DNA of 29,609 nucleotides from a virus, in the IMG/VR virus record IMGVR_UViG_3300027908_000003, positions 64,001 to 93,609 of that record, one strand, 5' to 3'. Numbering within the stretch: position 1 is the first letter of the stretch; each line of letters begins with the position of its first letter. Under the pieces are notes generated by a model. It ran no database searches and was not told the DNA's origin. It saw only the letters and a list, made by a program, of their open reading frames with translations. Position numbers and translations under genes: made by a program. Shown here piece by piece: positions 14,163 through 26,306 of the stretch.

Positions 14163-14164
14163 AA

Positions 14165-14235
14165 CTGGAGAATCTGGACTCGAACCAGAATATCAAAGAC
14201 CAAAACTTTGCAGGCTGCCTTTACCTCATTCTCCA
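14165..14235 (-). tRNA. tRNA-Gln(UUG)
   Basis: Read on the minus strand: acceptor TGGAGAA pairs with TTCTCCA (7 bp, discriminator G); T8-G9; D-stem AGG/CCT (3 bp) with GG in the loop; anticodon stem CAAAG/CTTTG with loop TTTTGGT, giving anticodon TTG; T-stem TCTGG/CCAGA with loop TTCGAGT. 71 nt, no encoded CCA (TT follows). It decodes CAA. It lies within the minus-strand row between the AT-hook gene and the 103-aa gene. Confidence 0.85.
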
Positions 14236-14263
14236 ACTCCAACGGGTGGCACGAGAAGGAATA

Positions 14264-25981: not shown

Positions 25982-26085
25982 TTTCTTCAGCCAGATTTCC
26001 AAGTTTAACTATAACTATAAGATTTTGCCCCATTTGTGGGAGAACGGATAGATTTAATCTTGACATAAAGCATGACACCTGCTAG
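25978..26085 (+). CDS. 35-aa zinc-ribbon-like peptide
   Basis: FPSLTITIRFCPICGRTDRF to KHDTC: C-x-x-C-G with a further H and C, one possible zinc site. ATGA overlap at its start. The promoter at 26060-26088 lies inside its 3' end. Confidence 0.5.
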   Translation: MISSARFPSLTITIRFCPICGRTDRFNLDIKHDTC

Positions 26086-26088
26086 CAT
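26060..26088 (+). promoter_or_regulatory. Promoter before the tRNA
   Basis: TTGACA (26060-26065), 17 nt, TGC-TAGCAT (26083-26088), about 80 nt before the tRNA-like gene. Confidence 0.65.
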
Positions 26089-26167
26089 ACTAATGCAGGC
26101 TAAGCGTCCAATTATCAACCACAATTAGAGAATGCGGCCAAATAAGTAAATGCTTAGTCTGCAATTG

Positions 26168-26243
26168 GGGGCTCTAACTCCTCTGGCTTATATCCAGTTG
26201 AAAGAGTAGTCGGTACAGCCTGGTTCGATCCCAGGGAGCCCCA
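26168..26243 (+). tRNA. Unusual tRNA-Ile(UAU)-like gene
   Basis: 76 nt. Acceptor GGGGCTC pairs with GAGCCCC (7 bp, discriminator A). T-arm CCTGG-TTCGATC-CCAGG is normal. An anticodon arm CTGG-CTTATAT-CCAG with anticodon TAT matches tRNA-Ile arms that read AUA. But it starts at nt 16, where the D-arm should be; only TAACTCCT separates it from the acceptor. A D-loop-like AGTCGGTA lies after it. ACTC (nt 10-13) can pair with GAGT (nt 37-40) to extend the arm. It could be D-armless, rearranged or inactive. No CCA is encoded. Confidence 0.6.
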
Positions 26244-26261: not shown

Positions 26262-26306
26262 CTCCTCGCGTGGCCTAGCTGCCTAGCTTGATATCAGCGC
26301 GAGGAG
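26262..26306 (+). promoter_or_regulatory. 9-bp inverted repeat over a promoter (operator candidate)
   Basis: CTCCTCGCG (26262-26270) and CGCGAGGAG (26298-26306) are exact reverse complements. The right half lies in the spacer of the promoter at 26288-26316. AGCAC-aagta-GTGCT (26249-26263) is a second small hairpin just before it. Either an operator or a hairpin closing the tRNA transcript. Confidence 0.6.

Follow-up and report, generated by a model that had tools for sequence, protein, structure and literature searches.

The stretch of viral DNA analysed here, referred to as the window, comprises 29,609 nucleotides (nt; positions 64,001 to 93,609 of IMG/VR record IMGVR_UViG_3300027908_000003) and carries on its plus strand, at 26168–26243, a 76-nt transfer RNA (tRNA) gene, rearranged relative to the cloverleaf and with the isoleucine anticodon UAU. 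Read directly, the gene runs GGGGCTC-TA-ACTC-CT-CTGG-CTTATAT-CCAG-TTGAAA-GAGT-AGTCGGTACAG-CCTGG-TTCGATC-CCAGG-GAGCCCC-A. The acceptor strands GGGGCTC (26168–26174) and GAGCCCC (26236–26242) pair at 7/7 positions, the latter being followed by the discriminator A (26243) with no CCA encoded, and the T-arm CCTGG-TTCGATC-CCAGG (26219–26235) is a canonical 5/7 arm with 5/5 stem pairs. After the linker UA (26175–26176, tRNA positions 8 and 9) no D-arm is found between acceptor and anticodon arm. The anticodon arm CTGG-CTTATAT-CCAG, with a stem of four base pairs (bp), starts already at nt 16 (26183–26197), its anticodon UAU (26189–26191) reading AUA. It is flanked by CTC (26178–26180) and GAG (26204–26206), the strands of an enclosing 3-bp helix, and between the two helices CT (26181–26182) faces the internal loop strand TTGAAA (26198–26203). 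A D-loop-like AGTCGGTA is located 3′ of the anticodon arm, and the displaced D-loop TAGTCGGTACAG spans 26207–26218, with GG at 26212–26213 and a position-20-like T at 26214. The acceptor, T-arm, length, Ile(UAU) anticodon arm from nt 16, lack of a preceding D-arm and D-loop-like sequence behind it had been pointed out in a first-pass annotation of the window, and direct reading confirmed each of them.

The element was not called by ARAGORN, whose sole call in the window was a canonical tRNA-Gln(UUG) at 14164–14236, and no Rfam family, tRNA (RF00005) included, matched 26168–26243 at E≤1. A single sequence proves little, and the question was therefore settled with homologues.

A blastn search against named phages gave weak matches in the Streptomyces phages Stanimal and Yaboi and in crAss-like phage tikkala, all in unannotated gaps inside tRNA clusters; a further match, in Rhodococcus phage Peregrin, lies in a gap between genes. 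The common layout of these matches consists of a 7-nt acceptor strand, UA, NCUC or NCCC, CU, a 4-bp anticodon arm, UUGAAA, GAG or GGG followed by U, a linker containing GG, the T-arm, the second acceptor strand and A. With this core as a pattern, 87 stretches were found in IMG/VR, and 68 good distinct sequences were aligned. Wider IMG/VR patterns left the helix positions open, two of the scans having the whole anticodon arm as 15 N. Anticodon-blind scans of viral contigs gave at least 223 distinct matches; acceptor and T-arm pair well in 222 of the 223 listed, and the family is larger than these 222 listed homologues. A strict pattern carrying the window's own anticodon arm had no match. Homologues with a normal D-arm, together with an assembly error in the window copy, had been named in the first-pass annotation as a refuting outcome; instead, the homologues share the odd layout of acceptor, UA, a short helix around the anticodon arm, a linker with GG, and T-arm.

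A covariance model, R1, built from the 68 sequences separated pattern-matched members (74–97 bits) from canonical tRNAs (at most 29 bits). The window copy scored 82.7 bits, a value that is partly so by construction as the sequence is itself among the training sequences. Divergent members scored between the two groups and have the same layout, with internal loops TAGCC, TTATA or TAAA instead of UUGAAA. ARAGORN calls overlap only 2/222 listed homologues, and a few divergent members reach 29–36 bits with RF00005.

The family is widespread and largely unannotated. Its members come from jumbo phages and from phages that infect Streptomyces, Rhodococcus, Microbacterium and Bacteroides, and most have other tRNAs nearby. 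Scanning 84,980 genome species gave five matches. Three of them (L093, L094 and L095) are true members, all in metagenome-assembled genomes and with phage-family matches such as endolysin and helicase in their neighbourhoods, and two (L092 and L096) are chance matches; no clear evidence of the class in cellular chromosomes was thus found. Locus L066 from the first scan was likewise dismissed as a chance match, and L042 is truncated by the end of its contig. The one consensus core tried on plasmids had no match, nothing similar above the canonical background was detected in the rest of the window's phage, and a capsid search for its relatives in named phages found none.

The secondary structure is supported by covariation. 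RNAalifold, run unguided on the 68 sequences, recovered the acceptor, the T-stem and an anticodon stem enclosed by a 3-bp helix, with no D-arm before the anticodon arm and with double-sided changes at 15/19 pairs. Standard pairs occupy 96.7% of cells, against 65.3% in shuffled alignments and 39–51% in slid-partner controls. In a wider set of 110 members, 97.6% of cells are paired and 18/19 pairs show compensatory change: all seven of the acceptor, 3/3 of the enclosing helix, 4/4 of the anticodon stem and 4/5 of the T-stem, in which the fifth pair never varies. The 5′ segment from the acceptor to the anticodon loop measures 19 nt in 108/110 of these members. UA at positions 8 and 9 is invariant in the 68-sequence alignment, and the GG of the linker is present in all aligned members. 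TTGAAA, itself an element of the search pattern, does not vary among the 68 aligned sequences either; further members have TAGAAA or another version in its place. The canonical 5/7 T-arm with its TTCRA loop is kept, and CCA is encoded in only 17/106 members.

The enclosing helix pairs in 222/222 listed homologues, in seven Watson-Crick versions (CTC/GAG 82, CCC/GGG 77, ACC/GGT 42, CGC/GCG 6, TCC/GGA 5, CAC/GTG 5 and GCC/GGC 4) and one G-U version, whereas independent strands would be expected to pair in 65–69% of cases per variable position. The compensatory changes that the first-pass annotation had proposed to look for in its ACTC/GAGT pairing are therefore present in the three inner pairs, CTC/GAG; homologues mostly have U-U in place of the outer A-T pair, which is not conserved. 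The change in arm order that it offered as one explanation is supported as well: the strands at the D-stem position do pair (CUC/GAG), yet what they surround is the anticodon arm, and the D-loop-like GG is found on their 3′ side.

The anticodons are restricted to two amino acids. All 222 listed homologues, found with anticodon-blind patterns, have Ile (UAU 117, GAU 51, CAU 10) or Arg (ACG 19, CCU 13, UCU 12) anticodons; the ten CAU members were counted as Ile, although CAU may read either AUA, with lysidine, or AUG. A descriptor-based, equally anticodon-blind scan of the fetched loci returned Ile and Arg almost exclusively and added Arg UCG; other anticodons in this structural scan and the blind patterns belonged to misread canonical tRNAs and a few chance matches only. 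The anticodon loops of the listed members follow CT/TT-NNN-R-N: U33 is kept, and position 37 is a purine and nearly always A.

The base directly 3′ of the displaced GG varies with the amino acid. Among the listed members, all 44 Arg copies have A there, and none of the 178 Ile copies does, U or C being found instead. When 106 members were aligned, divergent ones included, A followed GG in 31/34 Arg and 0/72 Ile sequences (Fisher 1e-23, a value computed from related sequences and no true probability). Canonical tRNAs from the same loci behave alike: behind the D-loop GG, 69/74 Arg tRNAs have A and 28/31 Ile tRNAs have U. The synthetases for Ile and Arg both belong to class Ia and have determinants at D-loop position 20 and the anticodon (PMC9976931). 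Arg identity is given by A20, the main determinant of the arginyl-tRNA synthetase (ArgRS), together with C35 and A/G73, and Ile identity by A73, positions 20–21 and the anticodon (PMC9976931). The discriminator is A in 178/178 listed Ile members and G (24), A (15) or U (5) in the Arg members. At sequence level the Ile (A73, U20, A35-U36) and Arg (A20, C35, A/G73) identity bases are thus in place. As the linker base tracks the amino acid in the way canonical position 20 does, the linker behaves as a D-loop moved across the anticodon arm.

Among the loci listed, a canonical tRNA was located within 1 kb of 178/215. Where a canonical Ile(GAU or UAU) tRNA was co-resident, the rearranged copy had the other anticodon in 20/22 pairings (Fisher p 3e-4), for example canonical UAU with rearranged GAU in tikkala and the reverse at locus L083. 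In 31 of 47 stretches with at least 10 canonical tRNAs and a rearranged Ile copy there was no canonical tRNA-Ile. Two or three rearranged copies may stand in tandem (L055:6220–6383, L058:10189–10349 and L085:1410–1655), those at L085 having three different Arg anticodons, CCU, UCG and UCU. The contig of one rearranged Arg tRNA also contains a phage transfer-messenger RNA (tmRNA) called by ARAGORN (L103:6827–7193). The window phage itself (93.6 kb record, 40% G+C) has canonical tRNAs Arg(UCU), Leu(UAA) and Gln(UUG); each of these reads a codon ending in A, as does the rearranged Ile(UAU). AUA accounts for 31% of the phage's Ile codons. This combination fits a role in codon supply without being proof of it.

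In consensus-core searches the class was found in 82, 45 and 6 (overlapping) records, mostly of Streptomyces phages of the Stanwilliamsviridae. In Mildred21, Jay2Jay, EGole, LilMartin and Coruscant, an Ile(GAU) member has an FtsK-like gene on one side and a nucleotidyltransferase gene on the other; in Mildred21 the latter is annotated as tRNA nucleotidyltransferase. At five Streptomyces phage loci (L115, L116, L117, L120 and L121) such a (tRNA) nucleotidyltransferase gene directly precedes, on the 5′ side, a rearranged tRNA without encoded CCA. In the databases, the Ile(GAU) copy of EGole (L117:1482–1558) is misannotated as tRNA-Leu, a second copy in Mildred21 (L119:1494–1569), a rearranged Arg(UCG), as tRNA-Phe, and in Quaran19 (L118) and Coruscant (L121) the rearranged tRNA overlaps an annotated coding sequence. 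In crAss-like phage cr130_1 (L123:5075–5148), an annotated tRNA-Gln was given the anticodon CUA by ARAGORN, a suppressor or Pyl-like call.

Near the window copy, too, there is an FtsK-like gene, about 1.2 kb downstream of the tRNA. L132 is the nearest relative found; its FtsK-like neighbour is 62% identical, and a rearranged tRNA occupies the syntenic place (2796–2873), with compensatory changes in acceptor, enclosing helix and T-stem and with all other stems kept. Upstream of the window copy, the strong promoter noted in the first-pass annotation corresponds to a promoter-like site, TTGACA-17-TAGCAT, on the plus strand (26060–26088), with TG before the second hexamer and 10/12 consensus matches, ending 80 nt before the tRNA; 1.2 such sites, however, are expected per shuffled region. 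The minimum-energy fold of the leader contains an 11-bp hairpin, GCAGGCTAAGC/GCTTAGTCTGC, just 5′ of the tRNA (26095–26162, plus strand), and a 9-bp hairpin, CTCCTCGCG/CGCGAGGAG, is predicted 3′ of it (26262–26306, plus strand), where L132 has a strong hairpin at the orthologous place. Neither is followed by a T-run; they are possibly signals for processing, protection or termination.

On this evidence, 26168–26243 would be a functional phage tRNA-Ile(UAU) of a structural class so far unrecognised, to which a probability of roughly 0.8 is assigned. This reading rests on the conserved layout, the covariation, the restriction to Ile and Arg, the identity-base rule and the complementarity with canonical tRNAs. 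As to the family, it is concluded from these sequence comparisons that its members are presumably functional elongator tRNAs that obtain their D-loop from the sequence 3′ of the anticodon arm. It also appears likely that they form a natural tRNA class with another chain topology, in which D-loop and anticodon arm are exchanged around the D-stem and the elbow is built from the 3′ side, that Ile and Arg, both class Ia, are its only clients, and that it is spread over many unrelated phages and possibly shielded from host enzymes recognising a canonical D-arm.

The chain runs from the acceptor through U8-A9 into the 3-bp helix directly around the anticodon arm, and from there through the GG linker to a normal T-arm; in effect, D-loop and anticodon arm have swapped places around the D-stem. 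The account that follows, of the three-dimensional fold and of expression, charging and decoding, is inferred. The 3-bp helix would stack on the 2/6 internal loop, and this in turn on the 4-bp anticodon stem, to approximate the length of the normal stack of D- and anticodon stems; with a nearly constant 19-nt 5′ segment, which gives about ten layers of stacking and so matches a normal tRNA, the anticodon should reach the decoding site. The GG is proposed to dock in the T-loop, so that the elbow is formed and the synthetase is offered the position-20 base. Since acceptor and T-arm are normal, the ends would be cut by the usual nucleases, CCA would be added by nucleotidyltransferase, and the host isoleucyl-tRNA synthetase, or ArgRS for the arginine members, would charge a product that serves as an isoacceptor otherwise missing from the phage.

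Several observations weigh against this reading. Folded alone, the window copy is only marginally better than its shuffled versions (z −1.5), and the enclosing helix has a probability of 0.06 in the single-sequence fold. The members are interrelated, so the counts given above are not independent events. Complementarity is not absolute either: in Mildred21 a canonical and a rearranged Ile(GAU) lie about 17 kb apart. Finally, the L132 copy has a 5-bp anticodon arm, CCGGT-AGCAACC-GCCGG, with a loop AGCAACC lacking U33; with such an abnormal loop, decoding may have been lost in at least one member, and this copy may be losing its role or have another one.

The lack of a D-arm from acceptor to anticodon arm, and a plan of acceptor, one long arm and T-arm resembling mitochondrial tRNA-Ser(AGY) (PMC7609411), could also suggest a D-armless tRNA of the mitochondrial kind, in which the enclosing helix merely extends the anticodon arm and the GG linker is a passive variable region. 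A passive linker would be hard to reconcile with GG in all aligned members, with a following base that tracks amino acid identity like canonical position 20, or with a T-loop that keeps TTCRA, and this explanation is considered unlikely. The term D-armless, used in the first-pass annotation, is hence only half right: no D-arm is present in the normal place, but the D-loop function appears to be retained elsewhere. Phage tRNAs can counter tRNA-targeting defences (PMC10264068, PMC11555353), and the abnormal L132 loop would suit a non-decoding mimic, either a regulator or a decoy or sponge that occupies modification enzymes or the tRNA-cleaving defences of the host. A decoy would, however, have no need of the 20:2 isoacceptor complementarity or of exact synthetase identity bases, a proper discriminator and a proper anticodon loop, all expected of a charged elongator, which renders this role improbable for the family.

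Two further explanations involve a damaged or scrambled gene, and hardly any weight is given to either. A decayed gene had been an alternative in the first-pass annotation, and decay, mis-assembly of a canonical tRNA gene or an integration-site remnant would explain why ARAGORN and Rfam miss the window copy, the 3′ half of a tRNA being able to serve as an attachment site. For the family, decay is refuted by more than 200 distinct homologues, from unrelated phages and independent isolates, that keep the layout with compensatory changes, and both acceptor strands are kept. The canonical segments in altered order would equally recall a circularly permuted or split gene processed to a canonical tRNA. 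In the present case the acceptor ends are in normal order and the stems pair as they stand; because the exchanged parts are internal, neither circularisation nor bulge-helix-bulge splicing would restore a cloverleaf.

If the proposed class is real, the L-shape can arise from another connectivity, and in cultured phages of Streptomyces, Rhodococcus and Microbacterium. The family would then allow tests of the reading of shape, as opposed to topology, by synthetases, EF-Tu, RNase P, modification enzymes and the ribosome, and a rearranged tRNA could serve as a scaffold for engineered tRNAs. In practice, current programs can miss Ile and Arg tRNAs in phage inventories, which would bias studies of codon supply and of tRNA-based anti-defence. 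For Coruscant, MindFlayer and MulchMansion, two papers count 41–42 tRNAs (PMC7650747, PMC10690885), with ARAGORN and tRNAscan as the counting programs (PMC10690885).

Compared with canonical bacterial and phage tRNA-Ile and tRNA-Arg, the family has the same 7-bp acceptor, 5/7 T-arm, 7-nt anticodon loop with U33 and purine 37, discriminator A or G, D-loop GG, position-20 identity base, length of 76–77 nt and clustering in phage genomes. It departs from them in that no D-arm separates acceptor and anticodon arm, the strands at the D-stem position form a helix around the anticodon arm, and the D-loop sequence comes after that arm. To our knowledge, all tRNAs except truncated organellar ones are regarded as sharing the order acceptor, D, anticodon, T. 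The tRNA-like domain of tmRNA combines an acceptor and T-arm with a D-loop without a normal stem. The present family differs from it by a D-loop 3′ of the long arm, the presence of an anticodon, and the absence of an inserted reading frame; the window copy measures only 76 nt in all, and the Rfam tmRNA search gave only a 15-bit fragment match, in a homologue. In circularly permuted tRNA genes the order is changed at the gene level and processing yields a canonical tRNA. Such genes (PMC3978253) share with the family a segment order altered from that of the canonical gene. Unlike in these genes, the new order here would be that of the mature RNA itself, and the acceptor strands are in normal order. 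Allo-tRNAs, tRNA-Sec, tRNA-Pyl and others are natural departures from the cloverleaf too, yet they keep the order acceptor, D, anticodon, T in the sections consulted of a 2020 review, which cover Sec, selC-like, allo-, Pyl and mitochondrial forms and do not mention phages (PMC7609411). The layout was found undescribed for any tRNA in those sections or in the open-access literature searched, which included few subscription papers and preprints; novelty is not proven thereby. The D-armless mitochondrial tRNAs of metazoans (Ser AGY type) also lack a D-arm between acceptor and anticodon arm. From these, the family is set apart by being phage-encoded, by its mostly 76–78 nt, conserved enclosing helix and Ile/Arg identity, and by its GG and canonical T-loop: where the D-armless tRNAs have a simple connector, the GG is kept on the 3′ side, from which it would contact the T-loop.
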